DNA of 45,783 nucleotides. Source: Deltaproteobacteria bacterium (GTDB lineage: Bacteria > Desulfobacterota > GWC2-55-46 > DRQE01). The stretch's first letter is position 1. Every line of letters begins with the position of its first letter. The position numbers and the translations under genes were made by a program. The notes under the pieces were generated by a model. That model was given only the letters and a program-made list of their open reading frames with translations. It was not told the origin of the DNA and made no database searches. Positions 3,150 to 27,325 of the stretch are shown in pieces. The stretch covers positions 1 through 45,783 of the forward strand of contig JAJRSM010000021.1 of assembly GCA_024278765.1 (NCBI GenBank), in the 5' to 3' direction.

Positions 3150-4583
3150 ATGAAGATAATAAGGTCGATATTCTTAGTGTCTCTCGTCTTTTTGGCCTCC
3201 TGTGTTACACCGGCGGTGCAGGACTTGCAGACTCGGTTTTCTTCGCCTCCTTCTTCCTCCTTCGCCAGGGTCTTGGTGTACCTGCATCTCACAGCCTCGT
3301 CTACTGACCTTGAATTCAGTATAACCCAGGCCTCATTGATCGATGGTGAGGGGGGCAGTCACGACCTGTTGCATGCACCGGTAAATGTAAGCTCTGTGGA
3401 TGTTGGAAAAAGTCAGGTACTGCTTGTCGAGGGTTTTGTTGCTCCAGGCGATTATATTGGTTTACGCCTTGCTTTTAGCCGCGCATCTATCGGTCGCGGC
3501 GGTAAGAGGGCCAATCTTATTTTGCCGGAGAAGGGCGGCGAGTTTGAGGCTTCTTTAAATCTTGAACTGGACGGCGGGCAGAGCACCGTGCTCAGCCTTG
3601 AGTGGAACCCTTCGGCATCTGTAGAGAAGAGAGTTGTATTTACTCCTGCCATAACAGTAGAGACTCAAAGGCCATCGGCCAGAGGCCTGCTGCTTTATAT
3701 CTCCAATAGTGGATCAAATTACGTAACTGTCATTGATAGGAGTCTTGAGCGGGTCATCGGAGCGGTAACGGTTGGGGACGGCCCAAGGGCAATGGCCCTT
3801 AATAAGCGCAATGACATGCTTTACGTGCTTAATTCGCGTTCGCATTCAATATCGGTCATCGATGCCTTGTATCTGGAGCTGCGCGATACCATTGATCTGA
3901 CCGCAGGGATTAACCCAACGGATATGACCTTTATGCCTGACGAGTTTGATGCTACCGATGGTAAGCTTTATATAGTAAACAGATCCAGCAACGATGTGGT
4001 TTTGGTTGATACCGCATCAAGCCGTGTAATGAAGGCAGTCCCTGTCGGGCACAGACCGTCGTTTGTTTTGGGTGATAAAGATCGTCGCGAGATTTATGTA
4101 ACCAATGAACTTTCCAATACACTTAGCATAATAAGTACGATTGACGACCTGGTTGTTGCTACTATAAGGGTTGATGGTAGTCCGGTAGGTTTGGCCCTTG
4201 GTGATGACAAGGTATATGTTTTTAATCAGGGGTCAAACTCAATATCAGTGGTCTCGCCTTCGGACAGAGTAATCGTTGATACTTTGATCTTATCTGATCC
4301 TCCAAGCAGGGGGATCAAGGCCTTTAACAAGCGTTTCTTTATCTTGAATACTTTAACTGACAAGATAACTTTCTTTAATAGACAAGACGTGCTTACTGCG
4401 ATAAGAAAGGTAGGTGACTCTCCTATAGGGCTAGCAGCTGATGAGGACCGCAATCGGCTCTACGTCTCTAATTTTGGTTCGAATACGGTCTCTATCATAG
4501 ACCCGAAAGGAGAGAGGGTCGTAGGCGAGCTTGATGTTGGTAGTAAGCCGTACGGCGTGCTTCTTCTGGATAATCAACAATGA
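3150..4583 (+). CDS. YVTN-type beta-propeller lipoprotein
   Basis: Lipobox FLASC; repeated YVTVIDRS..VIGAVTVGDGPRAMAL / YVTNELSNTLSIIS / YVSNFGSNTVSIIDP blades. Confidence 0.85.
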   Translation: MKIIRSIFLVSLVFLASCVTPAVQDLQTRFSSPPSSSFARVLVYLHLTASSTDLEFSITQASLIDGEGGSHDLLHAPVNVSSVDVGKSQVLLVEGFVAPGDYIGLRLAFSRASIGRGGKRANLILPEKGGEFEASLNLELDGGQSTVLSLEWNPSASVEKRVVFTPAITVETQRPSARGLLLYISNSGSNYVTVIDRSLERVIGAVTVGDGPRAMALNKRNDMLYVLNSRSHSISVIDALYLELRDTIDLTAGINPTDMTFMPDEFDATDGKLYIVNRSSNDVVLVDTASSRVMKAVPVGHRPSFVLGDKDRREIYVTNELSNTLSIISTIDDLVVATIRVDGSPVGLALGDDKVYVFNQGSNSISVVSPSDRVIVDTLILSDPPSRGIKAFNKRFFILNTLTDKITFFNRQDVLTAIRKVGDSPIGLAADEDRNRLYVSNFGSNTVSIIDPKGERVVGELDVGSKPYGVLLLDNQQ

Positions 4584-6700
4584 CAATAAAACCTGTTTTA
4601 TTGATTACAGTTATTGCGACATTTGTGTTTTTTGCTGGTTCTCATGTCGCACTGGCTTCCATAGGTGTCAGGGCCAGTTTTTCTGAAAACGAGATTGTTA
4701 CAGAGACAGCTGGAGTAGTTAAAAACTCAACAACGACAACAAAGAACTATAGTCTGAACTTTCAAAAGCAATTGACAAATACTCTATCTTTAAATGGTGA
4801 TATTCGGTGGACAGATTCGCTAGTTAATATTGATGGGGTAGAGACCAAGACAAAAAATGTATTTCCAATCTTTACATTAAACTACAGCCCTCCCGCGCAG
4901 TATAATTTGAGGCTTGGCTATAACAGGACAGAGAGTGCCCCGTCACAGGACGACCGTATAACAACGGCAAATATGAATGCCGGCTTTGCTTTACCAGCTG
5001 GCAGGCTTCCGTCTTTTGATTTAAGCTTTAATAAGACTACGACCGAGGACCACGCTAAGGTGCAGCAGATAAATGGCGAGACTGCTACGCTAAGGGCGTC
5101 ATCGTCATACAAGTTTGAGTACAGAGAGGTGGATGCGAGCATTAATTATAGCTTCAGTCAGACCTCGTCAGAAGACTTTATCGTAGATACTACCACAGAA
5201 ACACCTACACATTTTTTTTCGACCGATGCTAGTAGGGAGTTTATGGACGGTAAGTTGAAGGCATCAATGAATTATGGTTTTAACTTAAGTGAGACGACTA
5301 CGGAAAGTCTTGGTACAGCAAGTAGGTTTGAACAAACAGTCGGGCCCTCTACCGGTCTTGAGTTCGGGTATCCGGTTGGCGGGCCGACACCGCTGGTTAT
5401 GACAGGTGAGCCGCAGCTTATAGATAACGATAGAAATACCGCAGTTGTGCCTTCCTCGGTTGGAGACCCTACGATAGACCTTAGTGTCTCTAATTGGAAT
5501 ATGGGGCTTGGTTTTACCAGCACTCAGGGCATACATGAGCTTAATCTTTATATTACATCTGCGCTTTCGTCGGTTGTTATATCCGGTTATAATTTTGGCT
5601 GGCAGGTCTACACCAGCACAAATAATGTCTCTTGGACTGTGTTAGGCTCAAGTGTTAATTATAACTCCGTTTTTCGTCGTTTCGAGTTTGCTTTTTCGGA
5701 GACAAATGCGCGGTACTTTAAGATCGTCAATACCCTTAGCCCTCCGACTCTGGGCACTATTGAGGTGACCGAGATTACGGCATTAGGGTTTGCGATAAGT
5801 ACGCCCAGGAACAGCTTTACCTCTAGTGTTACCCGGGGTTTCAGCGGTCTGACATTGGTTTATTCGCCAACAGACAGGCTTAATCTTGGAATGAATATTA
5901 CTATTGATACTACATCCGACGAGAGAGATGGTTCAGCCGATATCGAGATAAAAAACAGCCGTTATGGTTTGAACGGAAGGTATGTTGTTATACCTGAGTA
6001 TATGCAATTTGCCTCTACTTATGCATCAACCATTTCGACACCGTCAAATGGTGATGAGAGTGAGACAAATAGTTACACTGCGGCATTCTCCGTGACGCCA
6101 CTTGATACGGTAAATGGCAGTGTGTCATATCTTTACTCAGAGAACCTGCTGGCCGGTGCAGTGCAAAGTGAGCAGAACTCTGCTAATATGAGTGTCTTTA
6201 TGGAGGTATATACAGGGATTGACCTGAATTTAGGTGCAACTATCTCATCTTCCGAGTCGCCGGCGAGTGGTTCTGAGACCGAGAGTAGTTCCTATATATG
6301 GGGACTTAAGCTTGAGCCCTGGAAGACGTTGACAATACTGCTCAATGGTAGTAGTTCTGGTGGTGAGAGTACTCAGGGAGGCGTTACTACGACAAGTACC
6401 TCGGAGACGCTGGATATGCGCATCTCCTATAACCCGAACAGGAAGCTCTATATGTCAGCTGATTTTGACTTTAAGCCAGAGGTCTCTGAGATCTATAGTT
6501 TGACATGGACACCCACACGGACTATTCAGTGCAGGTTTAAGTATAACTCTAATGATACAACTAGTGGTTTTTCTTCAGATTTGAGTTGGCGTCCGTTTAG
6601 GCCGATAAGTTTACACACAGGTTATTCAGTTATCTGGACCGACAACTTGACGGATGATCAGGTTGAGACGCTATATACTCGGGCATCGATACGTTTTTAA
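4580..6700 (+). CDS. Outer-membrane beta-barrel candidate with an internal discoidin (F5/8 type C)-like segment
   Basis: Signal peptide, alternating amphipathic strands throughout, C-terminal Phe (YTRASIRF*), internal SVVISGYNFGWQVYTSTNNVSWTVLGSS...RRFEFAFSETNARYFKIVN. Start overlaps the upstream stop (ATGA). Confidence 0.7.
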   Translation: MTIKPVLLITVIATFVFFAGSHVALASIGVRASFSENEIVTETAGVVKNSTTTTKNYSLNFQKQLTNTLSLNGDIRWTDSLVNIDGVETKTKNVFPIFTLNYSPPAQYNLRLGYNRTESAPSQDDRITTANMNAGFALPAGRLPSFDLSFNKTTTEDHAKVQQINGETATLRASSSYKFEYREVDASINYSFSQTSSEDFIVDTTTETPTHFFSTDASREFMDGKLKASMNYGFNLSETTTESLGTASRFEQTVGPSTGLEFGYPVGGPTPLVMTGEPQLIDNDRNTAVVPSSVGDPTIDLSVSNWNMGLGFTSTQGIHELNLYITSALSSVVISGYNFGWQVYTSTNNVSWTVLGSSVNYNSVFRRFEFAFSETNARYFKIVNTLSPPTLGTIEVTEITALGFAISTPRNSFTSSVTRGFSGLTLVYSPTDRLNLGMNITIDTTSDERDGSADIEIKNSRYGLNGRYVVIPEYMQFASTYASTISTPSNGDESETNSYTAAFSVTPLDTVNGSVSYLYSENLLAGAVQSEQNSANMSVFMEVYTGIDLNLGATISSSESPASGSETESSSYIWGLKLEPWKTLTILLNGSSSGGESTQGGVTTTSTSETLDMRISYNPNRKLYMSADFDFKPEVSEIYSLTWTPTRTIQCRFKYNSNDTTSGFSSDLSWRPFRPISLHTGYSVIWTDNLTDDQVETLYTRASIRF

Positions 6701-6763
6701 TTTTTATTTTTCTTTCATAAGCTTATGAATAATATAAAAAAACTTGTATAACGGAGTGCGTTA

Positions 6764-7375
6764 ATGTATAATATTAGTGCTATGTTGAATTGTCCAGTCC
6801 GTCTTAGACGAGATTGTGCTAAGTTTATTCTGATCGTGTTGCTGCTGACGGTGGCAGGGTGTAGTGGCAGAGTTGTCAGGTATATTAATCCCGAGGCAAA
6901 CTTTTCGTATATTCGTAAGGTTGCTGTCTTGCCTTTTAATAACCTGACAGGTGACCGTTATGCCGGTGAAAAGGTGCGTGCTGCGTTGACGGTTGAGCTC
7001 TTGTCGCGCATGACCTTTGATGTTATGGAGCAGGGAGAGGTAAGTAAGGTCTTGACCCTTGTGATGAGGGCAACAGGTGCTGATGAAGGCATGGTGCTTG
7101 AGTTGGACAAAGAGACTTTGAAGCTCCTGGGGGAGAGGCTCGGGGTTCAGGCCGTTATACTAGGCAGTGTTGATGACTACGAGTCCAGAAGGGATGGTGG
7201 TGTGGTCTCGGTCTCGATTAGGATGCTTGATACAAGCTCGGGGTTGATTCTGTGGCAGGCAAAGGGGGCGGTATCAGGCTCTAGCTTCACCAAGAAGATG
7301 CTCGGACTTGATAGTACAAATACCAGTGACCTTACTCGTAAGGTTGTAAGACGTGTCTTAAATACATTGCTTTAA
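6764..7375 (+). CDS. CsgG/LpoB-like lipoprotein
   Basis: Lipobox VAGC; VAVLPFNNLTGDRYAGEKVRAALTVELLSR...LLGERLGVQAVILGSVDDY...RMLDTSSGLILWQAKG. Confidence 0.7.
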   Translation: MYNISAMLNCPVRLRRDCAKFILIVLLLTVAGCSGRVVRYINPEANFSYIRKVAVLPFNNLTGDRYAGEKVRAALTVELLSRMTFDVMEQGEVSKVLTLVMRATGADEGMVLELDKETLKLLGERLGVQAVILGSVDDYESRRDGGVVSVSIRMLDTSSGLILWQAKGAVSGSSFTKKMLGLDSTNTSDLTRKVVRRVLNTLL

Positions 7376-7452
7376 GTTTTAGCCGGGCTTTGATTGCTTG
7401 TTTTATTTAAAAGACCGGAACCTGTTGAAAAACCGGGGCTTGTGAGTTTTTA

Positions 7453-9138
7453 ATGAGGATATTTATGCGATTACTTTTAAAAAAATATAAGGGTCTGTCT
7501 TCTGTTCCGGCTAAAGCGGTTTTAAATATTGGCCTCTGGAGCTCTCCGTTGTTGCTAAAGGGCTTTGCCGTGAGTATTGTCTTGGCCGTGGCTCTTTTGG
7601 TAACCGTCTCTGTGATGGCAGAAGATACCTCAAAACATACAAATACAAGTAGACTTTTAGAGAACGACACAAATGACACAAAACTTGCTCCTGTAAGAGT
7701 TGTTGCGCCAAGCGAGGTTGTATCACTGTCAAGCCTGGCGATCTTGCCACTAGAGAACCTCTCGGACAATCCTTTGGCCGCAACCATGATGACTGATTAC
7801 CTGAAAAACGAGTTCAGGGATAGGGGGCTTTACAATATCGCAAAGACAAAAGATGTTAACCGGTTCTTGGCTCGTCGCAGGATACGTTATACCGGTGCTA
7901 TTACCAGGATCGCCGTTAGAGAGATGGGAAAGGTTCTTGGTGTTGATGGAGTGTTTATCGGTACTATCAATTATTATTCTATAGTTGGCGATACTCTTAT
8001 TGTAGGTCTGAACTGTCGTATGTTAAGTGTCTCTGATGGTCGAATAGTATGGGCTGACAATATAACCTATACGAGCAAAGATTTTGAAGGGGTTTTAGGG
8101 TTAGGTTCAGTTAAGAGCATAGACGCGCTGGCCTCTATGGTTGTTAAAGATCTGATCGGATCTCTAAAAGACAGGTTCTTTGTCCGAGACAGCTATTACG
8201 GTCCTTTTGATATAGAGCGGGTTATAACTTATCCTGTGATGGGGCAGTCAGGCGGTACGAGAGATATAAATGTAAGATTTTTAAACCTTACAGACGAGCC
8301 TACGAGAGTAACGGCCTTTATGGGCACTACCGAGTATGAGCTTAAAAGGGTCTCTTTTGGTACGTACGAGGGGGCTGTCGATGCTCCTGAAGCCGAGGGC
8401 ATACACTTAATTGATGTGGTTGCAGTGGCCTCTGATAGTAAATCCTACGCCTTCAGTGCAGTGGGTAAGGTTGTTGTCGATGATACCCCGCCGGTTATAT
8501 CCATGTATGCCAGTCGAGATGTCTTCTCAACAAAGAAGAGAGGTTTTGTAGTCTTTGAGCCAAAGCTTATAAGCTTTGAGGAGATAGATGAGTGGGATGT
8601 GAGCATCACCGATAGCGAGGGAGTGGTGGTCAGGAGTGATAGGGGGTACGGTCGTATGCCGGTAAGGCTTGTGTGGAAGGGCACTAGCTCAACACGGTCA
8701 CTGGTGAAAGATGGCAGCTATACCTTTACCTTACAGGTAAAGGATCCTTCCGGCAATGTCGCAAAGGTTTCTAATGTCGTAATGGTTAAGAACTCGCCTC
8801 CGGCTATTGATGTTGATGTGGATATTGTAGAGGATACAGTACTCTTTAGTTTTAACTACAGCCCTGATGAACCGATTGAGAGTTGGAGTATAGCTATAGT
8901 TGATAGAGGAGGCAATATTATAAAAATGCTCTCCGGTGAAGGAAGGACCTTGCCCGAACGCTTTGAGTATCCAATAGGTAAGGACTACGATGTTAAGAAG
9001 TTGAGTTTTAAAGTAGAGGCAAAGGACGTTGCCGGCAACAAGTTTGAGATGATCAAGACCATACCTTCTCTCTTTGCCAATAAAACACCATTTGCAGGGC
9101 TCAAAGGTGTGCAGAATGTTATCTGGGACGATTTTTGA
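7453..9138 (+). CDS. Exported protein: CsgG/LpoB-like N-terminal domain plus Ig/FlgD-like repeats
   Basis: LAILPLENLSDNPLAATMMTDYLKNEFRDRG...LGVDGVFIGTINYY...CRMLSVSDGRIVWAD; later VKDGSYTFTLQVKDPSGNVAKVSN, typical of Ig/FlgD-like folds. Confidence 0.65.
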   Translation: MRIFMRLLLKKYKGLSSVPAKAVLNIGLWSSPLLLKGFAVSIVLAVALLVTVSVMAEDTSKHTNTSRLLENDTNDTKLAPVRVVAPSEVVSLSSLAILPLENLSDNPLAATMMTDYLKNEFRDRGLYNIAKTKDVNRFLARRRIRYTGAITRIAVREMGKVLGVDGVFIGTINYYSIVGDTLIVGLNCRMLSVSDGRIVWADNITYTSKDFEGVLGLGSVKSIDALASMVVKDLIGSLKDRFFVRDSYYGPFDIERVITYPVMGQSGGTRDINVRFLNLTDEPTRVTAFMGTTEYELKRVSFGTYEGAVDAPEAEGIHLIDVVAVASDSKSYAFSAVGKVVVDDTPPVISMYASRDVFSTKKRGFVVFEPKLISFEEIDEWDVSITDSEGVVVRSDRGYGRMPVRLVWKGTSSTRSLVKDGSYTFTLQVKDPSGNVAKVSNVVMVKNSPPAIDVDVDIVEDTVLFSFNYSPDEPIESWSIAIVDRGGNIIKMLSGEGRTLPERFEYPIGKDYDVKKLSFKVEAKDVAGNKFEMIKTIPSLFANKTPFAGLKGVQNVIWDDF

Positions 9139-9383
9139 GTTCAGGTCTCTGAACCCTATTCATTGAAGTTTGCAAGCAAATAAAATCCTCAATTTTTTCT
9201 TGATTAAATCACTTTATAAACATATACTTAGTACGTTGTCTTTTTAAGAGGCCTTTTGTGTTAATCTCAGCGAGTTTAATTGCAGTACAGTTCTGATAAG
9301 GTCTTTCTGGTTATGCTTGTTATCTATTTGCGTAGAGATGGATGTTCTGAAATTGGTGGATACCAACGGCTGGAGGGCTACTT

Positions 9384-9923
9384 TTGGTCAGAAGAAAAAA
9401 GATTAATTACTCTGTAAAAGGGCGTATGCAGAAAAGGCTCTTTGTCAGCGTAATGTTCGTGGTCCTTATTAGTGTGGGATTGATGGCCTTGTCATTTTAC
9501 TTTCTTGCAAATCAAGAGGCCGGTGAAAGCTATCGTCAGTTTCACGTAAATGTAAAGAATCTGCTGGATATGCTCTTGCCAGCTGTTATTATAGCTACTT
9601 TGGTAGGGCTTGTTACGGCTTTTATCGTGGCGATGTTTTTACCTCTTAAGTGGGTGGGCCCGGTTTATAGGATTGAACAGGAGCTTAAGACAGGACTCGA
9701 TAAGGGTAGTCTGAATATGAGCTTTAAACTTCGTGACGGCGATGAGTTTGGTGAATTGGCAACGTCCCTGGATCGTACTTTTTGTAAGGTTAGGGGTGAG
9801 ATCAGTGAGGTTAGGTCGGCATTGGCCGAGCTTAAGACAGCGCTAGATTCAGAGACGCATTCAGCGCAGACAGAGGCTGCATTTAAAAAAACAGAGGATG
9901 CACTTGGAGAGCTTAAGATATGA
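9384..9923 (+). CDS. Two-TM membrane protein with HAMP-like linker and coiled coil, no recognisable output domain
   Basis: Two hydrophobic helices, then PVYRIEQELKTGLDKGSLNMSFKLRDGDEFGELATSLDRT (HAMP-like). TTG start with nearby GGAGG. Confidence 0.6.
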   Translation: MVRRKKINYSVKGRMQKRLFVSVMFVVLISVGLMALSFYFLANQEAGESYRQFHVNVKNLLDMLLPAVIIATLVGLVTAFIVAMFLPLKWVGPVYRIEQELKTGLDKGSLNMSFKLRDGDEFGELATSLDRTFCKVRGEISEVRSALAELKTALDSETHSAQTEAAFKKTEDALGELKI

Positions 9924-10501
9924 GAGGTGGGCTTAAGGGTCTGGCTGTTTTTTTTATTGTGGCCATGGTGTTGGCCTCTTTTGCAACAGGTTGTTCCCGC
10001 GTTAAGACAAGACTCTCCGGTGAGCAATTGCGCGAGCGCGGCGAGCCGACCAAGAAGATAGCGGTCTTGCCTTTTTATAATATTAGTGACAGGCGAGATG
10101 CCGGCAAGATGGTGGCTAATAATTTTGTTACCGAAATATTTGTCAGTGGTCGGTACAGGGTGGAAGAGCCAGGTAATATTCTGCAGTTCATGCTTCAGGA
10201 AAATGTAAGCGTGATTGGCGAGATGGGGATAGACAGGATCAAGATACTCGGGCGTCGGCTCGGGGTAGACGGGGTTTTGGTGGGCATAGTAGAGGTCTTT
10301 GATGATGGCAGAAGAAATACCCCGAAGGTCTCTATAACGGCAAGGCTTGTAGATTCTGAGACCGGTACTGTAGTCTGGTCCAGGCACCTCAATAAGACCG
10401 GAGACGATTATGTGATAGCCTTTGGCGTGGGTAAAATCAGGAGTGCGAACGCACTTGCACAGAGGGCTATCAGAGAAATGCTAAAAACTATTAAGTGGTA
10501 A
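9920..10501 (+). CDS. CsgG/LpoB-like lipoprotein (third of three)
   Basis: Lipobox FATGC; KKIAVLPFYNISDRRDAGKMVANNFVTEIF...LGRRLGVDGVLVGIVEVF...RLVDSETGTVVWSRHLN. Confidence 0.7.
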   Translation: MRGGLKGLAVFFIVAMVLASFATGCSRVKTRLSGEQLRERGEPTKKIAVLPFYNISDRRDAGKMVANNFVTEIFVSGRYRVEEPGNILQFMLQENVSVIGEMGIDRIKILGRRLGVDGVLVGIVEVFDDGRRNTPKVSITARLVDSETGTVVWSRHLNKTGDDYVIAFGVGKIRSANALAQRAIREMLKTIKW

Positions 10502-12033
10502 TGGAGTTGTATTTGTTGAATATAATTGGTTTTACTGGGGTTTGTCGTCTTTTATTTAGGTTTACAGGCAGTTTGCGAAGCTCTGCGCGTGCTATAGTGC
10601 CGCTGCGTGTGGGCGGTGCTGCTTTGAGCGTTCTTGTGCTGGTCCTGCTACTAAGTTTTTCTACTCCGGCGCATGCGGCTTGGCCTTTTCAGAAAAAAAC
10701 AGATGAAAATTATATCGCCAAGGTTGGTAATGTTACTATAAAGCTTGCCGATTTTGAAAAGGCAGTTAGAAAACTTCATACAACAAAACGCGTGGGCCAG
10801 GCACTTTCCGTAGAGACTTCTTTTGAAAAACACAGCTTTGCGAAATATCTTGATGAGCTTATAGATAAAGAACTTATGGTAATTGAGTGTGAGCGTATGG
10901 GGCTTGATAAGGAGCCTGCATTTGTAAGGGAGGTCTATAACTATAAGCTTAACCTTTTTCTTGGTGAGCTCAAACGTGAAGAAATATTCGAGAAAGTAGA
11001 GGTTACTGAGGCCGATATTAAGGCTGAACTTGAAAAGCAAGGTATCTCAGCGGAGCAGGTGCCAGAAGATGGCGCAGAACAGGCGAAGAAGGCAGACCCG
11101 CATGCATCTACTTCTCAGCCTTGGCTGGTGGCCAAACGCAAACTTACAAAGATTAAAAACAAGGCTCGCGAAGACAAGTTTTTTATGGAGTTAAAGGCGC
11201 AGACCAGCATTGATGTCAAGACCAAGGCCTTAAAGGTTTTTTCATCAACAGATGAAAAACTTCATTCTCGCGTAGTGGCAATCGTAGGTGGCGAGAAGAT
11301 ATTGGCTATAGATCTGTTGCGTGAGTTAAGAGGGAAGAGTCAGCATGATATTAAACTTTTGAGAAAAACCCTGGATAACCTTATATTACATAAACTTCTG
11401 GATAAAGCGGCCTTCAGCCGTGGTTATGAGTCTTTACCCGGTATAAAGGCTTCTATTACCAAGTTTAAAAAGAAACGCCTGCTTGACGTCTTTAATAGAC
11501 GAGTTATATTGCCTCTTGTAAAGGTTGATGAAAAAGAAATAGTAGAGTATTATGAGTCTAATCCTGATGAATTTATGACCCCTGCAAGCTATAAGTTGAG
11601 AATGATTTTTGTGCCTGACGAGCTTGAAATCGAAACTATCACCAGTGAGCTTAAAAGAGGGGCAGACTTTGGCTATCTTGCTAGAGATCGTTCCATTGAT
11701 CCGACAAAAGACAAGGGAGGTGAGCTTGGCTGGGTCTCTGCAACCAGACTCTCTGATGATATTGCTGGGGCCGTGGCAAGCGCCAGAGATGGTGATATCG
11801 TAGGGCCTTTCAAGATGGAGTATGGGTTTTCGGTAATGGAGCGTTTAGGGGAGAGGCCGGGGGAGATCAAACCTTACGCTTCTGTACGGGTAGATATTGA
11901 CAGGCGGCTCGGACGTGATAAGTTCTTTGCTATACATAAGAAGTATATTAAACGTCTTAGAGAGACCGTCCCAATTAAGATTAATAAAAAAGCTTTGAAG
12001 AAAGTAATGATAGTAAAACCCAAGGAGGGGTAG
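10495..12033 (+). CDS. SurA/PpiC-type peptidyl-prolyl cis-trans isomerase
   Basis: C-terminal parvulin signature: ADFGYLARDRSIDPTKDKGGELGWVSATRLSDDIAGAVASARDGDIVGPFKMEYGFSVMERLGERPG; N-terminal SurA-N-like region. Confidence 0.85.
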   Translation: MVMELYLLNIIGFTGVCRLLFRFTGSLRSSARAIVPLRVGGAALSVLVLVLLLSFSTPAHAAWPFQKKTDENYIAKVGNVTIKLADFEKAVRKLHTTKRVGQALSVETSFEKHSFAKYLDELIDKELMVIECERMGLDKEPAFVREVYNYKLNLFLGELKREEIFEKVEVTEADIKAELEKQGISAEQVPEDGAEQAKKADPHASTSQPWLVAKRKLTKIKNKAREDKFFMELKAQTSIDVKTKALKVFSSTDEKLHSRVVAIVGGEKILAIDLLRELRGKSQHDIKLLRKTLDNLILHKLLDKAAFSRGYESLPGIKASITKFKKKRLLDVFNRRVILPLVKVDEKEIVEYYESNPDEFMTPASYKLRMIFVPDELEIETITSELKRGADFGYLARDRSIDPTKDKGGELGWVSATRLSDDIAGAVASARDGDIVGPFKMEYGFSVMERLGERPGEIKPYASVRVDIDRRLGRDKFFAIHKKYIKRLRETVPIKINKKALKKVMIVKPKEG

Positions 12034-12036
12034 CTC

Positions 12037-14010: not shown

Positions 14011-14048
14011 TCAACAGAAATTCATAGTGTAGAGGGTAGTGAGTAAAT

Positions 14049-15311: not shown

Positions 15312-15330
15312 TCTTTAAGGAGAAGGTCTT

Positions 15331-18647: not shown

Positions 18648-18755
18648 AATTAGAAGCAGTCTTTTATTGGGGTTTGTGTTTTTATTTTTGTAATTTACTG
18701 TGTTTTTGTTTCTGTAATAAACCTTATTATTTTTAGAAAGAAAGTTAAAAATAGG

Positions 18756-18789
18756 TTGACACCTTCATTAATTTTTGTTAATCTATACT
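18756..18789 (+). promoter_or_regulatory. Possible sigma70 promoter for the OmcS-like gene (TTGACA; suboptimal -10 TAATCT at 17 bp or TATACT at 22 bp)
   Basis: Read directly: TTGACA 18756-18761, TATACT 18784-18789. Spacing or -10 quality is imperfect. Confidence 0.35.
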
Positions 18790-18795
18790 TAATGA

Positions 18796-18954
18796 ACGAA
18801 CTGATGCAGGTTCGTAATAGGGTTTAGGGGTGACGATTGCCTCATTCGGGAAGGATAAGTATGTTTGGCTGGTAGCTACACGTAGATTTAATATTTAATG
18901 ATGTGTAGTATCCATGATTAACTTTAAAGCCGAACGACTTCCAGGGTTGAGGCA
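18796..18954 (+). promoter_or_regulatory. Structured 5' leader RNA: one short hairpin plus a long nested multi-stem hairpin
   Basis: ACGAAC/GTTCGT (18796-18801/18810-18815). Nested stems TGCCTCA/TGAGGCA (18838-18844/18948-18954), GGAAG/CTTCC (18849-18853/18938-18942), GTTTGGCT/AGCCGAAC (18863-18870/18928-18935), GCTACACGT/ATGTGTAGT (18875-18883/18901-18909). Confidence 0.6.
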
Positions 18955-19040
18955 TAATTTTTGTCCTCTGTGTGAATTAGATGTAAGGTACTATCTTTAA
19001 CGCTCAAAATTTTGAAAACAAATTCAGGAGGTAATAGACA

Positions 19041-20333
19041 ATGAGAAAGCTAATCTTAGCCATATTCACTCTAGGCGTGGCAGGACTGCTGGTTATGATA
19101 GCCACCCCTTCGATGGCTGTTCATAAGAACTTCAATAATCAGCTCTATTGTGGTGGTTGTCATACCATGCATAATAGCCAGGGCGGAGTAACCTTGGAAG
19201 GAAATGCTGCCAACGGCGGTTCAATAGTACTCCTTAGGGGTGACGTAGCACTTAGAAAAGACGTACATAACCTTTGTCTGCAGTGCCATGGTTCAAACGG
19301 TTCTCAGGCAACAGGCGTATGGGATGGTCATACTGCACCTAAAGTCTATATTGATGGCGCAGAGGGTGACGGTAACGGCTTCAGTCTTCTAGATACCAAT
19401 CCTGCAAATGATGACTTTATCAATATCGGTGCTGGCGGAGACTTCTCAGCTGCGATGGAGGGAGATTCCTCAGGTTGGGCAGTACGTACTACGGCTTTGC
19501 CGACATTTGGTACGGTAGAGGGAACAACTCCAATAGGTAGAGGTCATAGTCTTGGACTGGCAACAGCAACACCTCCAGGCAATGCCGACGGAGATGTTAC
19601 TGACTTTACATGTACTTCGTGTCATGACCCTCATGGAGCGTATAACGTGCCCACTACTGAGGCCAATAGGTTCCGTAACCTTAAGAGGATTCCTAGGGAT
19701 AGTGGATCTACCAATGTCTTACTTAATGCTAATATCAGGAGCTATGTAGGTTACGGTGGTTGTGATGCCGATGCTAACTGGACCAATGGTAGTGGTTCGG
19801 GTGCTACCTTTATCTGGCCTGTATATACTACAGGGGCTGACTGGTCAACTGATACCAGTGATTGTTATACAGCTGGCGGTAGGGTTAACTCCTACGGTGT
19901 AAGCACTGGAAATGCAACAGATGGGATAGCTAACTGGTGTGCGACTTGTCATGACGACTGGCATGAGGATTTAGCTTCAGGTGGAAACGACCAGGGGCTT
20001 GATTGGCAGAGACATCCGGTTGATAACCTTCTTAATGACGGTACAACGACCTCGGGTGGTAATGTCACAATAGTCGATACCACAAACTACAATGTAGCAC
20101 GTGACGCAGGTAGAGGACTTCCTATCGCAACAACCGATTCAAGTCCTGTCTTCTATCTTCAGGATGCAACAACGGATAAGGTCTTCTGTCTCTCATGTCA
20201 CTTTGCCCATGGCGGACCTTACTATGATAATCTCAGGTGGGACTACCTGGAGACAGTACAGGTGGCGGATCCAAGGCAGACGGCCAATACAATATCAAGT
20301 GTCGTTGGTTGTCAGCTCTGTCATAACAGGTAA
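19041..20333 (+). CDS. Hexaheme c-type cytochrome, OmcS-like candidate filament subunit
   Basis: Signal peptide; CGGCHTMHNSQGG, CLQCH, CTSCHDPHGAY, NWCATCHDDWHED, QRHPV, CLSCHFAHGG, CQLCHNR. 430 aa. Order and context match Geobacter OmcS as remembered. Confidence 0.85.
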   Translation: MRKLILAIFTLGVAGLLVMIATPSMAVHKNFNNQLYCGGCHTMHNSQGGVTLEGNAANGGSIVLLRGDVALRKDVHNLCLQCHGSNGSQATGVWDGHTAPKVYIDGAEGDGNGFSLLDTNPANDDFINIGAGGDFSAAMEGDSSGWAVRTTALPTFGTVEGTTPIGRGHSLGLATATPPGNADGDVTDFTCTSCHDPHGAYNVPTTEANRFRNLKRIPRDSGSTNVLLNANIRSYVGYGGCDADANWTNGSGSGATFIWPVYTTGADWSTDTSDCYTAGGRVNSYGVSTGNATDGIANWCATCHDDWHEDLASGGNDQGLDWQRHPVDNLLNDGTTTSGGNVTIVDTTNYNVARDAGRGLPIATTDSSPVFYLQDATTDKVFCLSCHFAHGGPYYDNLRWDYLETVQVADPRQTANTISSVVGCQLCHNR

Positions 20334-20367
20334 TACAGAGTGGCAGTTAATATAGAAAAATAAGTAG

Positions 20368-20402
20368 AGAGGGGAAGGAGTAATCCTTCCCCTCTTTTTT
20401 TT
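20368..20402 (+). terminator. Strong intrinsic terminator after the OmcS-like gene
   Basis: Perfect 12-bp stem AGAGGGGAAGGA-GTAA-TCCTTCCCCTCT followed by a T-tract. Confidence 0.93.
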
Positions 20403-20455
20403 GTTTTTTCTCGATTAGTGTGGTTTTTGTTTATATATCTCAATTGATTTTATAA

Positions 20456-20484
20456 TTGACCGTTTAGATTATCCTGTTTATAAT
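20456..20484 (+). promoter_or_regulatory. Near-consensus sigma70 promoter TTGACC-17-TATAAT
   Basis: TTGACC 20456-20461, 17-nt spacer, TATAAT 20479-20484, directly upstream of ATG 20494. Confidence 0.75.
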
Positions 20485-20493
20485 GTTGAGGCC

Positions 20494-22290
20494 ATGACGC
20501 GATACCTTAGAAGACATTTAAAAGATTGTTTGCTGTTGTTATTGGTTGTTTTAATGACTGCTTTTGTTGTCACGCGATCTGAGGCAGTTGTAGTCTTGCC
20601 GCTACATGCAGAGCCCTTTATCTCAAACCCTAAAATAGTTCATTTTGAAGAAAAAGAACTCAAAGGTAAGGATCAAGTTATTACTAAAAGACCTGCTGTA
20701 ATCTTTGCGCAGAGACCAGTGGAGAGACCTATTGAAGAAGGCATTATTGAATCGCAGGATATAGCAGAGAATCCGCTGAGCGATCTTTTAGAAGTGCCAA
20801 TTGATATTAAATCTCTTAAGACGATTATTACCCCTGTCAAGACTCAGCAGGTTGAGCCTGCATCTGAAGCTGAGAAGGTAGACCCTAAAGCACTTATTAA
20901 AAAAGCTGCGGATAACAAGCCTGCTAAGGCTGAGCTTCAATCCCATGAAGAGACAAGACCTCCTGTCATTTTCAAGCCAAAGGGCAAACCAGAATTAACT
21001 GTGCCTGCAAGAGCAGAGCAGCTGGGTGACAGGCCCGCTAAGGCTTTGTCTTTGAAAAAACCCGCATTAGTGAAGCCTTCAGTCCCTAAGGGCGTGCCTG
21101 AACCAGTAAAGGTACAGAGAATCGCGCCGCAGATAAAACCTGTTTTAACTATGCCTGTGCCTCTTAAGACTGACCCGTTGGATAAGAAGGCAATCAAGGC
21201 ACCGGCGGTAGAGAAACCCGCAGTGCTAAAGGCTCGGCCTACGCCAGAGAAGGAGTCGCAGCCCCCTCTTGTTTCCGATCAAAAGCCATCGGTGAAGGCC
21301 GTTGTTGTAAAGCCGCTGCAGCACAAGAGTACTGAGAAGAAACCTACAGAGACGACCAAGGTTGACGAGGGCAAAGAACAGGCTGCGGATAAAGTAGCAG
21401 AAGATAAATTTTCTAAAGATAAGGCTGATCAATATACCGGTCCAATCGAAGTTAGAGTAAAGCGACTTTTTGGCTTTGATGCTCAACTCAGTGGTACTTT
21501 GCTGGGCTGGGTGGACCAGATATATATAGATGAGTTAAATGACGAGATCTATCTGCTGGATAAGAACAGTAAGAGGATAGTAGTAACCAATCTATTGGGG
21601 GGCTACCTTTTTCACTTTAATTATGTCCTCGCCGGTGTCAAGAACCCGATTGCCTTTACGGTTGATTCCTTAAGTGGTGAAATATACCTGAGTGATTCAA
21701 ATAGGATTGCTATCCTTAATTATAGAGGAGAATATCAAGGGGACTTTAACCTTTCGCAGATGCCTGGAAGTAAAAATATATTTATTCAGTCCTTGCGCCT
21801 TGTAAAGAGTGATGAAGGGGACCTGTTATATATTGGCGATAATAAGAATCGCAGAATTGTAGTCTTTACAACCGGGGGCAAGTACGTTCGTACTATTGGT
21901 GCGGACCGCTGGGTAGGCAATAATATAAAAGGACTCTATATAAACAAAGATACTATCTTCTGGCTCGATAGTACTGGTTTTTCCGTCAAGAGTGTAGATC
22001 TGGACGGAAAGAATCAAAGGTCCTTTGGCAGGCTTTCCAGTCTGCTTGGTGGTTTTAGTATGCCATCTAATATGGCCATAGATGACGTCAATAAGAGGAT
22101 AATAGTTGTAGACGCAAACCGCATGATGATTATCTTCTTTGACTTTGAGGGTAATACGCTCTTCGAGTTTGGTGGGCCACGTCTTTTTTCCTGGCCTAGA
22201 GCAATTGCCGTCGATAAAAACGGGTATGTTTTTGTTGCAGATAATAGCGGCGTTATCAGGGTTTTTAATATAGTGCCGCTTGATAAATAA
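20494..22290 (+). CDS. Membrane-anchored or exported protein with a long Pro/Lys-rich linker and a C-terminal NHL-type beta-propeller
   Basis: N-terminal hydrophobic segment; about 280 aa rich in P/K/V/A (e.g. KPALVKPSVPKGVPEPVKVQRIAPQIKPVL); C-terminal propeller blades (WVDQIYIDELNDEIYLLDKNSKRIVV, IAVDKNGYVFVADNSGVIRVFN). Confidence 0.8.
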   Translation: MTRYLRRHLKDCLLLLLVVLMTAFVVTRSEAVVVLPLHAEPFISNPKIVHFEEKELKGKDQVITKRPAVIFAQRPVERPIEEGIIESQDIAENPLSDLLEVPIDIKSLKTIITPVKTQQVEPASEAEKVDPKALIKKAADNKPAKAELQSHEETRPPVIFKPKGKPELTVPARAEQLGDRPAKALSLKKPALVKPSVPKGVPEPVKVQRIAPQIKPVLTMPVPLKTDPLDKKAIKAPAVEKPAVLKARPTPEKESQPPLVSDQKPSVKAVVVKPLQHKSTEKKPTETTKVDEGKEQAADKVAEDKFSKDKADQYTGPIEVRVKRLFGFDAQLSGTLLGWVDQIYIDELNDEIYLLDKNSKRIVVTNLLGGYLFHFNYVLAGVKNPIAFTVDSLSGEIYLSDSNRIAILNYRGEYQGDFNLSQMPGSKNIFIQSLRLVKSDEGDLLYIGDNKNRRIVVFTTGGKYVRTIGADRWVGNNIKGLYINKDTIFWLDSTGFSVKSVDLDGKNQRSFGRLSSLLGGFSMPSNMAIDDVNKRIIVVDANRMMIIFFDFEGNTLFEFGGPRLFSWPRAIAVDKNGYVFVADNSGVIRVFNIVPLDK

Positions 22291-22780: not shown

Positions 22781-23545
22781 ATGTCCGGCTACAATGGGGT
22801 TAAAAGTTACGATCATGTTAAAATACGGCTAAATATAAAGCTCGCTGAGTTATGTATCGTAGTTGCGGTTATTCTTGCCTTGTCGCTGGCCTCTTATAGT
22901 CGTAATTTAACATGGTTTGATGGCTACCGTATGTGGACTGATGTCTTGGAAAAGTCTGAGTCCAAGTGGCGTCCTTATTATAGGATGGGAATTATTCTGT
23001 ATCAGGGAGGGCGTTATGATCTGGCCCTGGCACAGCTTACCCGTGCCTATGAGTTAAAGCCGGATGCCAGTGGACTTTTAAATAATATGGGGCTGGCTTA
23101 CCAGAGAATGGGGCGTTACGGCGAGGCCGCAGATAGCTACCTGCTTGCGATAGAGACCGGTGACAGCGTCTTTCAGGCGAATCTAAATCTAGGAACAATA
23201 TATCTGAACAAAGGCAATCACGGCCAAGCCCTGATCTATTTTAATAGGTCCATAGAGCTGGAGCCGCAAAATATCGTAGCCCTTGTAAATGCCGGTTTTA
23301 CATACGCGGACCTGGGTGATTTTGAAGAGGCTGTAAAGCTTCATACAAGGGCCGCTGCGCTGGACCCTTACTATGCTAATGCTCGTTATGGTCTGGCCAT
23401 TGCTCGAGAGGGTAGTGGAGACCTAGACGGGGCGATAAGAGAGTGGGAGCGATATTTAGTGCTTGCCCCGAAGGGTAGTCCGTGGCGGCAACGTGCTCTG
23501 GTAAAGATCAAAAGACTTAGATCTCTAAAAGCAAGAACTAGGTAG
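22781..23545 (+). CDS. TPR protein with N-terminal TM and a TMTC-like 'NLTWFDGYRMWTDVLEKSESKW' entry motif
   Basis: Several TPR repeats (LLNNMGLAYQRMGRYGEAADSYLLAIE, ANLNLGTIYLNKGNHGQALIYFNRSIELEP). Confidence 0.8.
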   Translation: MSGYNGVKSYDHVKIRLNIKLAELCIVVAVILALSLASYSRNLTWFDGYRMWTDVLEKSESKWRPYYRMGIILYQGGRYDLALAQLTRAYELKPDASGLLNNMGLAYQRMGRYGEAADSYLLAIETGDSVFQANLNLGTIYLNKGNHGQALIYFNRSIELEPQNIVALVNAGFTYADLGDFEEAVKLHTRAAALDPYYANARYGLAIAREGSGDLDGAIREWERYLVLAPKGSPWRQRALVKIKRLRSLKARTR

Positions 23546-23569
23546 GTACGTTTACGTGGAGGTGGTTTT

Positions 23570-24217
23570 TTGCATACATATAAAGTACAGAAAAATCTGC
23601 CGGTCCAGTTTTTAGTTTTTACGGCATTGATTCTGCTGTTGGCCGTTGTCTCCTACGAGAGGGCGCGAGTATGGTCAACGCCTGTTGCTCTGTGGAGCGA
23701 TGTCTCGGGGAAGTCACCGGCACTGGCCAGAGCTGCCAATAATGCCGGCGACGCCCTTATCGCCGGGCAGAGGTTCGCCGATGCGATCCCTTATCTCTTA
23801 AGGGCGGTAGAGGCAGATTCCCGTCAGATAGAACCTCATTACAACCTCGGTATAGCTTATCTTAAAACTCGTGACATGGTCTCTGCGCTGCCTCATTTTC
23901 AGGAGGTCCTTAAAATTAATGCTAGTCTGCAAGGCGGGCACTTTGGCTATGAGACTCGTTTTGATATTATAGTGGGCACAGAGGCAACCCTGGGTAATCT
24001 TTATAGTCTTCGTGGTCAGATGGATAAGGCCATTTACCACTACAAAGGAGCCCTTGCATTGTCTCCCGAGCTTTCATCTATACGTTTTAATCTAGCCCAA
24101 GCCTACCAGAGAAGCGGCAAGACAGAGCTAGCGGTAAGCGAGCTGGAGGAGATGCTCAGGTTAAATCCATCTGACCGGGGTGCTCGGCGTGCCATTTTAC
24201 AGTTAAAAAACCAATGA
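23570..24217 (+). CDS. TPR protein with N-terminal TM and 'ARVWSTPVALWSDVSGKSP' motif (paralogue of the upstream gene)
   Basis: TPR repeats IEPHYNLGIAYLKTRDMVSALPHFQEVLKIN, SSIRFNLAQAYQRSGKTELAVSELEEMLRLNP. Confidence 0.78.
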   Translation: MHTYKVQKNLPVQFLVFTALILLLAVVSYERARVWSTPVALWSDVSGKSPALARAANNAGDALIAGQRFADAIPYLLRAVEADSRQIEPHYNLGIAYLKTRDMVSALPHFQEVLKINASLQGGHFGYETRFDIIVGTEATLGNLYSLRGQMDKAIYHYKGALALSPELSSIRFNLAQAYQRSGKTELAVSELEEMLRLNPSDRGARRAILQLKNQ

Positions 24218-25164
24218 AAATATGTTATAATATTAGTCATATGGCACTATTTAAACGTTATAGGGTCGCAAGCTTTGTGGTTGCTTTTATGGCGATTATT
24301 GTCTTTTTCCCGGCTACTTCTATGGGCGGTGAAAGAGAGGAAAATCCTTCAACCTCACCAAGGCTCAAGTTTACGATAAAGGGTTTTTTCTCAGATAATT
24401 TTTTAAATCCGCTAGGGATCTTTATTGACAAGGAGCGTAACGAGGTTTATGTAGTTGACAATGAGCGCGATGAGATCTTTATCTTTGATCAGAAGGGCAC
24501 TCCTATCTTCAGGTTTGGACGTAAAGCGGGCAAAAGGCTTCTTTCCACACCAATAGATCTGGTGGTTAGAGGAGACCTGATATATGTAACTCAGGAAGGT
24601 AAGCCGTATGTTGAGGTCTTTGATCAGAGGGGAAACTCTGTTAAAAAGATAGAATTTCCTGGTAAATCATTTGCTCCCGGCAGGATAGATATAGACCATG
24701 ATGGCAATATTTATGTAGTTAACAAGAGGCTCGGAGAGTGTTATGTCTTGGGTACTCAGGACAAGGTTGTAAGGACGATAGGGCAGGGACTTACCTCTCT
24801 GTCGGGAGTGGCCGTAGGTAGTGACGTGATATATCTGATTACGCCATTTCCATCGCACACCAGGGTGATAAATGTCTACACGTTACGCGGTGAGATGATA
24901 GGTAGCTTTGAGCAGATAGATAGTCGAGGTGGTACACTCATTCTGCCAGTGGCCGGTAAGGTTGACTCTCAAGAGAACCTCTGGTTGGTCGATTCTTTAA
25001 AGGGGATACAGATTTATGATGCAAATTACAAAAAGTTCAGTTATTTCGGAAGATTAGAGACTCGCAAAGAAATGCTTCGCCATCCCGTTGATATTGACTT
25101 TTCTTTAAGCGGTATGATATATGTAGTGGATAAAGAGACCAAGAGTGTAAGTGTCTTTAAATAA
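24214..25164 (+). CDS. NHL-type beta-propeller protein, exported
   Basis: NPLGIFIDKERNEVYVVDNERDEIFIFDQKGTPIFRFG and further blades; start overlaps the upstream stop. Confidence 0.83.
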   Translation: MKICYNISHMALFKRYRVASFVVAFMAIIVFFPATSMGGEREENPSTSPRLKFTIKGFFSDNFLNPLGIFIDKERNEVYVVDNERDEIFIFDQKGTPIFRFGRKAGKRLLSTPIDLVVRGDLIYVTQEGKPYVEVFDQRGNSVKKIEFPGKSFAPGRIDIDHDGNIYVVNKRLGECYVLGTQDKVVRTIGQGLTSLSGVAVGSDVIYLITPFPSHTRVINVYTLRGEMIGSFEQIDSRGGTLILPVAGKVDSQENLWLVDSLKGIQIYDANYKKFSYFGRLETRKEMLRHPVDIDFSLSGMIYVVDKETKSVSVFK

Positions 25165-25204
25165 TGGTGTTTTATGCCTTTACTCATACCAGAGTGGACA
25201 AAGG

Positions 25205-26455
25205 ATGAAAAAACAGGCCAAACAGAAGTCTTTTGATATAGCCGTAGTTCTTCAGCCGTTGCGTCCTTTGGCAATGGTTGTTTTTGTATTTCTTTTTAGT
25301 ACTACGTTTTTCCTGACTATTTCTGCTACTCCGGCCTTCTCGGGTGAGTATCATGCTACCTCTGAGGAGACCACCACGGGCACCGAGACTCTGGCTTGTT
25401 CTCAGTGCCATACTATGCACGGCTCTCAAGGAGGGCAGTCGCTTCTTTATGAAGGCAGCACCTTGCAGCCAATGCTTATAAGGGCCTCATCCGTTACTAA
25501 TCTGTGTCTGTACTGCCATGGTTCAACCAGCCCGGGTGCGGTCGGGTGGGACGGCAGAACCCCGCCGCAGGTCGAGAACAATCAGCAGAGCTATACGCCA
25601 TCGGCAGGTGATTTTAAGCATAGCAACTATACAAACGAGGCGAACAGGCACAGCATAGGCATGGATGTCAGCTCCTTGTCGCCGCCGGGATACTCTGGTA
25701 TATGGAGTGATGTTACCGCACGGTTTGGCACGGAATTTAACTGTGAGTTCTGCCATGATCAGCATGGTAATACTAACTATAGGAATCTGCGCTTTAACCC
25801 GGGCGTTCCAGCCGACGATAATGCCTCGTCGCCTAACAGGGTTTTGGTTACTTATGCGTATGGTACTGGCTCAGACCCTAACGATAATACAAAAGACGTA
25901 AATTACTGGGGGGCAGGGGCCAATACTTCTTCGCCAAATAAATTTACTCGTTCGAGTGTCCGTTTCAGACGCGCCCCTCTTGACAGCGATAGCCCGGCAC
26001 GCGGCATATCGGCCTGGTGTGGTACGTGTCATGTTGATTTCTACGGTGCAAGTGGCGCATCCAATATGGGGGGAGTTTCAAGCGGCGGTGTCGTAGGTGC
26101 AGGTGATAATAACTCTTCGACAAATAGCCCGTGGCTCAGGCATCCGGTCGCTGATGTTGATATGGGTATAGCCAGCACTAATCTGCATGTTGATGTAGCC
26201 AACTGGAATTCGGTAAGCAGCAAGGCGCGTCATATAAATCCGGACGGAATCCCCGGCAATAGTGATGATCAGCCATTTTGCTTTACCTGTCATTACGCAC
26301 ACGGTGGTGGTAACCCCAACAGCGGCGGCTCACCGCAGCTTGACCATACAAATCTGGCCTTTGTAGACGGCAGTGGCAAGGTAAATATCGAGGCCGGTTA
26401 TAGCACTGCTACAGGCATGATTCGTAACCTTTGTCAGCAGTGTCATAATCAGTAA
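25205..26455 (+). CDS. Hexaheme c-type cytochrome, second OmcS-like paralogue
   Basis: Signal peptide from M19 of the ORF; CSQCHTMHGSQGG, CLYCH, CEFCHDQHGN, WCGTCHVDFYG, LRHPV, CFTCHYAHGG, CQQCHNQ. Confidence 0.85.
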   Translation: MKKQAKQKSFDIAVVLQPLRPLAMVVFVFLFSTTFFLTISATPAFSGEYHATSEETTTGTETLACSQCHTMHGSQGGQSLLYEGSTLQPMLIRASSVTNLCLYCHGSTSPGAVGWDGRTPPQVENNQQSYTPSAGDFKHSNYTNEANRHSIGMDVSSLSPPGYSGIWSDVTARFGTEFNCEFCHDQHGNTNYRNLRFNPGVPADDNASSPNRVLVTYAYGTGSDPNDNTKDVNYWGAGANTSSPNKFTRSSVRFRRAPLDSDSPARGISAWCGTCHVDFYGASGASNMGGVSSGGVVGAGDNNSSTNSPWLRHPVADVDMGIASTNLHVDVANWNSVSSKARHINPDGIPGNSDDQPFCFTCHYAHGGGNPNSGGSPQLDHTNLAFVDGSGKVNIEAGYSTATGMIRNLCQQCHNQ

Positions 26456-26492
26456 GTACTTGTTTTGTTATAGAGTATTCAACTAACTTGAG

Positions 26493-26523
26493 ACCCCGCG
26501 TCCGTCAAGGAGGCGGGGTTTAT
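26493..26523 (+). terminator. Probable intrinsic terminator after the second OmcS-like gene
   Basis: ACCCCGC/GCGGGGT stem (26493-26499/26513-26519) followed by a short T-rich tail. Confidence 0.6.
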
Positions 26524-26545
26524 ATTGTCCGGGAGGACTCTGTTA

Positions 26546-27325
26546 ATGAAGAAGGTCTTTTTATTTATACTTGTTCTTGCTTTTATCTCTTTACCTGTTA
26601 CGGTGGTAGCAGCCAAGGACGCAGGCAGCAGCAGTGCTCTGCCAAAGCCTCCTGCCTATAAGAGCAAGGCCGAGCTTACGGCAGAGATTACGAGGCTGGA
26701 GTCTATATCAGGGGGGCGTAGCTGGCAACAGGACTTTACTCTTGGCGTGGCCTATATGCATGCAGGCAAGGTTCGTTCCGCCTTGACCTTTTTAGAGCGG
26801 GTAATCGAGCGACGCCCTGATTTTTTAAAGGCCTATGAGCCAATCGGTATGGCGCGTTTTAAGGGCGGTGATATGGAAGGGGCTCTCAAGGCCTGGAGGC
26901 TGGCACTTAAGGCAGACCCAAAGTCTATTCATCTTAAAAAGATGATAGTCCTGGCTGGTGACCGGCTTGTACTCTCCAGACGAGTCGAGGGGCTGCTTAA
27001 AGGCCTCGATGCAGATAAAGAAAGTAGTTGGGAGAGCCAGCTGAAGTTGTCCAGGTTGTATCTTAAACTCAGAGAGCCGGAAAAGAGCCTTATTTATGTA
27101 AATAAGGCCATTGCTATAAAGGGCGAGGATGCAACATTGCTTGAGGCACAAGGCAGGGCCCATGCAGGTGGTGGCGAGTTTATGCTCGCAGCCGGTGCCT
27201 TTAAAAAGGCTTCGACCATGGTTCCGGAGCAAGGTCCATTCAAGCTCAGGTTGCTGAGGATGATTGCCGATATGGAGTCTCTTTTAAGACGTGAAAAAGG
27301 CAATAAAGAGACCGTTGTTAATTAG
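26546..27325 (+). CDS. Exported TPR protein
   Basis: GGAGG RBS and signal peptide from MKKVFLFILVLAF; TPR repeats FTLGVAYMHAGKVRSALTFLERVIERRPDF. Confidence 0.78.
   Translation: MKKVFLFILVLAFISLPVTVVAAKDAGSSSALPKPPAYKSKAELTAEITRLESISGGRSWQQDFTLGVAYMHAGKVRSALTFLERVIERRPDFLKAYEPIGMARFKGGDMEGALKAWRLALKADPKSIHLKKMIVLAGDRLVLSRRVEGLLKGLDADKESSWESQLKLSRLYLKLREPEKSLIYVNKAIAIKGEDATLLEAQGRAHAGGGEFMLAAGAFKKASTMVPEQGPFKLRLLRMIADMESLLRREKGNKETVVN

Follow-up and report, generated by a model that had tools for sequence, protein, structure and literature searches.

What does a bacterium need to build extracellular cytochrome filaments, and how is their production switched? Both questions are raised by a gene cluster of an uncultivated deltaproteobacterium (GenBank assembly GCA_024278765.1), located in a window of 45,783 nucleotides (nt) that is one whole contig (JAJRSM010000021.1, C40) among the 123 that make up a 2.2-Mb draft assembly. 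Between positions 3150 and 27325 the window contains 20 open reading frames, all on the plus strand, with 56 CXXCH motifs: 26 in the gene starting at 12037, 15 in that at 14049, three in that at 16257, and six in each of the two hexaheme genes, hexA (19041) and hexB (25151). The locus is probably a nanowire cluster of the type named osc in Geobacter and Oet in other bacteria, equipped with an RNA attenuator in front of hexA that would be switched by an ANTAR protein.

The two candidate filament subunits are hexA (19041-20333) and hexB (25151-26455), the latter a more divergent homologue of OmcS. In single-sequence phmmer searches hexA matched OmcS with E=1.3e-4 and hexB gave no match. When profiles built from their relatives within the class (GWC2-55-46) were compared with solved structures, hexA found OmcS (6EF8) at 5.8e-23, far ahead of all others, and hexB found OmcS alone at 5.8e-8, with no other match up to E=10; an initial annotation of this DNA had called both proteins OmcS-like, and these profiles bear it out. 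Each protein combines six colinear CXXCH motifs with homology to OmcS. Beyond these motifs, seven histidines in hexA and eight in hexB are invariant, and both proteins retain the signature CxxCHTMH, whose histidine is presumably a ligand of the neighboring subunit's heme. The extra histidines would be enough to give all six hemes bis-histidine ligation, one ligand being taken from the neighbor, as in OmcS, whose hemes follow an 11+1 ligand scheme (PMC6584659). As judged from sequence, the assignment of hexA and hexB as filament cytochromes is well supported. Two further hexA paralogues lie elsewhere in the window's genome.

A 393-nt non-coding stretch precedes hexA, and the region 18756-19041 supplies the gene with its own promoter (TTGACA, 17 nt, TAATCT; 18756-18790) and a leader of ~200 nt. 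Most class hexahemes keep the arrangement TTGACA-N17-TAANNT in their leaders. In the window the promoter is followed by two hairpins in tandem with GAYGRN loops, P1 (CGAAC-UGAUGCAG-GUUCG, 18797-18814) and P2 (GGGGU-GACGAUU-GCCUC, 18827-18843), the second of which is a putative antiterminator. In the alternative fold UGCCUCA (18838-18844) pairs 6/6 with UGAGGC, then AUAAUUUUUG, forming a terminator (18838-18963) with a T-run. Because the 3' strand of P2 pairs with the terminator arm, P2 and the terminator are mutually exclusive. The downstream arm lies at ~18948-18953, 93 nt upstream of the hexA ATG, and the long stretch between the two arms makes this leader less compact than most copies.

Conservation of this structure was assessed with R1, a covariance model built from 12 leaders, which matches the window at 18796-18844 with 44.3 bits (E=4e-10). 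In an alignment of 24 distinct sequences, which was fitted to the model and is therefore biased towards it, 96% of cells pair, with double changes in all four P1 pairs and in two P2 pairs. Covariation in the leader reaches 0.43 as compared to 0.16 after shuffling, slid controls collapse, and covariation is also present in a MAFFT alignment of the 12 seed leaders. A downstream arm followed by a T-run is complementary (6/6) to the 3' strand of P2 in 11 of the 14 class leaders that have P2, and at three further sites. These computations show both the fold of an attenuator and its conservation.

The leader stands upstream of hexA-type genes in most class genomes that bear an osc cluster. Strong R1 matches from outside the seed precede hexahemes at G055:C189, G060:C65, and G062:C38 (genome and contig), the gene that opens the osc operon at G055:C40 (with a weaker match in G005:C12), and a tetraheme gene at G053:C161, whose product matches PDB 7TFS, which we take to be OmcE, at 3.6e-26. 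Under strict filters, one of ~378 genomes of the phylum outside the class has the leader; in G155, which belongs to another class, it stands before a second OmcE-like gene (8.8e-13). In that copy (G155:C222, L257, ~1530-1602) the P2 3' strand GCCTCG can pair with CGAGG in the Shine-Dalgarno region of the OmcE-like gene, which suggests control of translation and not of termination. No copy was found in the Geobacter and other distant osc loci searched, including those of Nitrospirota, and the leader is largely a class trait. In G019:C14 (L180), a genome without an osc cluster, the leader precedes a heme-free, secreted-looking repeat protein, and the regulon is thus wider than cytochromes.

A search with all 4227 Rfam families gave no match in the window; the window and its relatives returned sub-threshold chance matches only, of which the one to 'CsrC' is the hexA terminator, and a search of the same type in the Geobacter and Nitrospirota osc loci returned just one unrelated c-di-AMP switch. 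A limited literature search, weak evidence in itself, found no paper on ANTAR domains and extracellular electron transfer together. The conserved attenuator that precedes the filament genes appears to be new, and the leader goes beyond anything claimed in the initial annotation.

Which molecule reads the leader is suggested by its architecture. ANTAR-target RNAs (eut, nasF, amiE) have two hairpins with A1 and G4 in the loop and a P2 that overlaps a terminator (PMC3369931). The hexA leader shares with them two tandem short hairpins with ~6-nt loops, as captured by the covarying model, a P2 that overlaps an intrinsic terminator in its 5' arm, and the loop G4, which is present in P2 in all aligned rows and in P1 in every row where P1 aligns. 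It differs in its conserved GAGGU/GCCUC P2 stem, in its filament cytochrome targets, and in the first loop position, which is mostly G and not A; the leader is not filed here as a classical ANTAR RNA because A1 is mostly missing. One clade of receiver-ANTAR genes lies within ~0.6-1.8 kb of the motif in three genomes (G060:C69, G062:C45, and G053:C161) and ~0.4 kb before hexA in a fourth (G001:C72), an adjacency with a chance probability of ~1e-4 in a hand estimate that assumes a 2-Mb genome to carry about two ANTAR genes. From this neighborhood and the similarity of the loops we infer that an ANTAR protein is the ligand of the leader. It is likely that the ANTAR-type attenuator serves as a dedicated on/off switch for filaments across the class, acting on OmcS-like and OmcE-like genes and sometimes on the export operon, and linked to a phosphorelay through the receiver-ANTAR protein. 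The receiver-HD-GYP protein encoded within the locus was also considered as a reader and set aside, since no RNA-binding domain is known in it.

In guanidine-II riboswitches, hairpins stand in tandem and their loops contain A[CU]GR. The tandem-hairpin loops of the leader recall them and mostly lack the ANTAR A1, both of which would fit a small-molecule riboswitch of that kind, or the target of some other protein, in place of an ANTAR target. We consider this unlikely, given that no Rfam family matches, that nine relatives gave nothing for mini-ykkC in particular at E values up to 1, that exclusion between P2 and the terminator is the published ANTAR layout (PMC3369931), and that ANTAR genes adjoin the leader or a hexaheme in the four genomes above.

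The genes upstream of hexA contain a core that is already known. A peptidyl-prolyl isomerase (PPIase), a 26-heme cytochrome, a 15/16-heme cytochrome, and a six-bladed propeller are contiguous at 10495-16260, in an order identical to that of Geobacter. The first (10495-12033) is an OscH-like chaperone with SurA-N and parvulin domains (Rotamase_2 1.5e-17; SurA_N_3 1.6e-8). The second (12037-14010) is an OscI-like c-type cytochrome lipoprotein with 26 CXXCH motifs, 46-53% identical within the class and with a Geobacter homologue at 590-600 bits. An OscJ-like c-type cytochrome with 15 CXXCH motifs and one CX4CH (14049-15311) is conserved beside it, and propB (15331-16260), an NHL-type propeller (NHL 6e-10), is the fourth gene of the published core. 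Upstream of the PPIase, a propeller, a barrel, and the small CsgG/PelC-type proteins have homologues in the Geobacter loci L136 and L155 (the barrel, by score, in L136 only). The propeller, propA (3150-4583), is a lipoprotein of the lactonase/YncE type (Pfam Lactonase 1.2e-8; beta_rpt_yvtn 1e-43; lipobox LASC) that scores 176-193 bits in these loci and, by position, would be the OscD-like opening gene of the core cluster.

The SEEP-SRB1 26/16-heme operon that carries this core was described in 2017 (Skennerton 2017, PMC5539420), and OetABI was named, together with OmcS-like cytochromes, in bacterial partners of anaerobic methanotrophic archaea (Murali 2023, PMC10553843). In Geobacter the osc (omcS companion) cluster is attributed to Shen et al. 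2025, as cited in PMC13194489, where OscH is assigned to folding, OscEFG to secretion, and OscD to morphology. As far as that citing source describes the cluster, the match to osc is one of order and composition, and the gene-by-gene osc names used here are those we infer. The window shares with osc, as represented by L136/L155 and not by G. sulfurreducens itself, the order propeller, barrel, two small CsgG/PelC-fold proteins, PPIase, 26-heme, 16-heme, propeller, with OmcS-like hexahemes nearby in both systems. Measured against the same partial account, the window adds a CsgG-Ig protein, a HAMP protein, a triheme cytochrome, a receiver-HD-GYP regulator, hexB as a second type of hexaheme, accompanied by TPR proteins, and the attenuator leader. 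The Oet/SEEP-SRB1 systems have the four-gene core and OmcS-like cytochromes in the cassette in common with the window; they belong to another lineage, the window has no OmcX-type 11/12-heme cytochrome, and the barrel is taken here as a likely exporter. The locus is best described, from its predicted products, as an osc/Oet-type nanowire cluster in an uncultivated deltaproteobacterial lineage, with a core that has been described before. The initial annotation had proposed a largely undescribed biogenesis pathway, and the CsgG-Ig, HAMP, triheme, receiver-HD-GYP, and hexB genes, the last with its TPRs and propellers, do lie outside the Geobacter-type core. With that core in print in 2017, in 2023, and, through the citation noted above, in 2025, we regard the proposal as improbable.

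The initial annotation fared better in tying the accessory genes to the filament cytochromes, an association that it had itself offered for refutation by co-occurrence and synteny. Among 63 genomes of the class, orthologues of the PPIase are present in 23, of the large CsgG-Ig protein in 21, and of hexA and hexB in 20 each, and Fisher p values, uncorrected for kinship, were 8e-8 to 1e-11 over the pairwise comparisons and 8e-8 to 9e-11 for accessory genes with hexahemes. One gene order is common to stretches from 13 class relatives. Public genomes scanned for the 26-heme protein yielded 80 loci; of the 65 long ones the PPIase is present in 64, the 26-heme cytochrome in 63, the small lipoproteins and the 16-heme cytochrome in 58 each, propB in 53, and the barrel in 49. 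Geobacter, Desulfobacterota, Nitrospirota, and others share a gene order of propeller, barrel, small lipoproteins, PPIase, 26-heme, 16-heme, and propeller. Two Acidobacteria loci (L116 and L135) encode a relative of the 26-heme cytochrome with 42 CXXCH motifs.

How the hexahemes leave the cell turns on the barrel and its neighbors. The putative outer-membrane beta-barrel (4580-6700; 706 residues ending in ...ASIRF) occupies the OetI/OscE position and is 29-43% identical in 12 class loci, with a Geobacter homologue at 95 bits. It matched no recognizable family in Pfam, NCBIfam, or profile searches, and the initial annotation's outer-membrane barrel stands as a candidate, by its repeats and C-terminal phenylalanine. 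By eye, an insert at ~5480-5790 resembles an F5/8 type C (discoidin) domain (profile E=0.25). The same annotation had listed three CsgG/LpoB-like proteins, comprising small lipoprotein 1 (6764-7375; lipobox VAGC; Pfam CsgG 6e-4), a large protein with a CsgG/LpoB-type N-terminal domain and FlgD-Ig-like domains (7453-9138; FlgD_ig 8e-6), and small lipoprotein 2, csgG3 (9920-10501; Pfam CsgG 4.7e-4), whose Geobacter homologues score 153-157 bits. The CsgG label falls just short for the small lipoproteins, at 19.6 and 20.0 bits against a gathering score of 20.8, and PelC is the nearest solved structure to a joint profile of these two CsgG/PelC-fold proteins (E=4.6e-9).

PelC forms a lipoprotein ring beneath a polysaccharide-export barrel. 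As in the PelBC channel, small PelC-fold lipoproteins here adjoin an outer-membrane barrel candidate; unlike that system, the window has no polysaccharide genes and its barrel has no sequence homology to the PelBC one. The PelC match, together with the adjoining barrel and chaperone, favors a predicted exit channel. The same genes have been interpreted otherwise, with the barrel and the 26- and 16-heme cytochromes as an electron conduit (Murali 2023, PMC10553843). On that account barrel, 26-heme, and 15/16-heme correspond to OetI/OetA/OetB and export nothing, and the hexahemes are surface acceptors or donors, whether or not they polymerize; a lipobox on the 26-heme protein and none on the 15/16-heme protein would fit partners outside and in the periplasm. 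We hold this to be a serious possibility, short of an even chance, as export-type parts, the PelC/CsgG-fold lipoproteins and the chaperone, directly follow the barrel in most lineages, and OscEFG is assigned to secretion in Geobacter, as cited in PMC13194489. Export and conduction by the barrel may both hold, a choice that sequence alone does not decide. Since no solved structure is closer to the small lipoproteins than PelC of the Pel polysaccharide exporter, the barrel and lipoproteins could also serve the export of a polysaccharide or glycan matrix that binds cytochromes, in place of the cytochromes themselves. We find this very improbable, as the locus has no polysaccharide synthase, and what is conserved is a PPIase chaperone with two filament-type cytochromes.

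Several observations weigh against an osc/Oet cluster switched by ANTAR. Position 1 of the P1 loop is G, and that of P2 is A in just six of 24 distinct rows. All 63 class genomes have ANTAR genes, which makes their presence or absence uninformative. In the window's own genome the leader is found solely at the window copy, and the ANTAR gene of the filament-linked clade is on another contig (C10), next to what is presumably a glycosyltransferase-like membrane protein. Two strong R1 matches (in G019 and G044) precede non-cytochrome or unclear genes. The class genomes behind the co-occurrence values are mutually related and partly incomplete. The barrel label, drawn from a repeat pattern and a C-terminal phenylalanine, is an unproven assignment, and AlphaFold2 models of the two hexahemes, made from shallow alignments, had mean confidence scores (pLDDT) of 36 and 33 and were left unused.

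The window genome's other ANTAR gene adjoins two apparent ammonium transporters. By eye, ANTAR genes of the filament-linked clade at L207 (G000:C10), L209, and L210 adjoin a GT2-like enzyme, a DUF2304-like protein, and a TMTC-like TPR membrane protein, and the first two TPR proteins of the window resemble the TPR modules of the TMTC-like protein. This neighborhood hints at O-glycosylation of filaments.

The remaining features complete the locus. Where about 18 genes had been described initially, 20 were found, and the overlapping starts and stops noted then are real at six junctions (propA/barrel, HAMP/csgG3, csgG3/PPIase, propB/cyt3, TPR2/propD, and propD/hexB); Pfam agrees with the four beta-propellers, parvulin PPIase, three TPR proteins, and HD-GYP regulator, and the count of 56 CXXCH motifs is reproduced exactly. 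Lipoboxes are present on the genes starting at 3150, 6764, 9920, 12037, and 16257. A two-helix membrane protein with a HAMP-like segment (9384-9923; NCBIfam MCP-like segment 1e-7) is kept in class loci. Between the CsgG-Ig and HAMP genes most class relatives have a pentaheme cytochrome of ~380 residues; the window's 245-nt gap there (9139-9383) has no CXXCH in any forward frame, and the window's genome has just distant paralogues of the pentaheme elsewhere. After propB come cyt3, a triheme cytochrome c7-like lipoprotein (16257-17006; Cytochrome_C7 8e-14; lipobox IVGC), and the receiver-HD-GYP response regulator (17090-18151; HD_5 3e-36; Response_reg 6e-32), which is 60-78% identical in class loci and has a conserved place between the triheme and hexaheme genes. 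A strong intrinsic terminator with a 14-pair stem and a T-run (20366-20397) follows hexA. Next is propC (20494-22290; NHL 1.4e-9), a beta-propeller with a long Pro/Lys-rich N-terminus and its own promoter match (TTGACC-17-TATAAT, 20456-20484). Past a gap of 490 nt lie the membrane-anchored TPR proteins 1 (22781-23545; TPR 1e-26) and 2 (23570-24217; TPR 3e-21), the NHL beta-propeller propD (24214-25164; NHL 4e-6), hexB, and TPR protein 3 (26525-27325; TPR 2e-12), the final gene of the locus, which follows hexB in relatives too. A reading of 3150-27325 as a single operon was rejected on account of the 393-nt and 490-nt gaps and the terminator after hexA. Outside the locus, a glucose-6-phosphate dehydrogenase is seemingly split into two minus-strand open reading frames (2483-2818 and 1271-2413, within 1271-2818), reflecting a frameshift, a sequencing error, or a pseudogene.

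Under the mechanism we propose, hexahemes would mature in the periplasm, held by the PPIase chaperone, and exit by way of the barrel and its lipoprotein rings in a PelBC-like manner. Outside the cell they would polymerize by inter-subunit histidine ligation, and the filaments would exchange electrons with the chain of 26- and 15/16-heme cytochromes. The unbound hexA leader would fold into the intrinsic terminator and attenuate transcription; binding of receiver-ANTAR to the two GAYGRN hairpins would stabilize P2, block the terminator, and allow hexA to be transcribed.

Little is known about how cells control their production of extracellular cytochrome wires, which are costly, and the attenuator offers a specific, testable control point. 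Its presence before two filament types marks the cytochromes that these bacteria treat as one regulon, and the leader may be usable as a sequence tag for filament cytochromes in uncultivated bacteria. For the exit channel, the match of the secretion lipoproteins to PelC would likewise provide a concrete model at the structural level.

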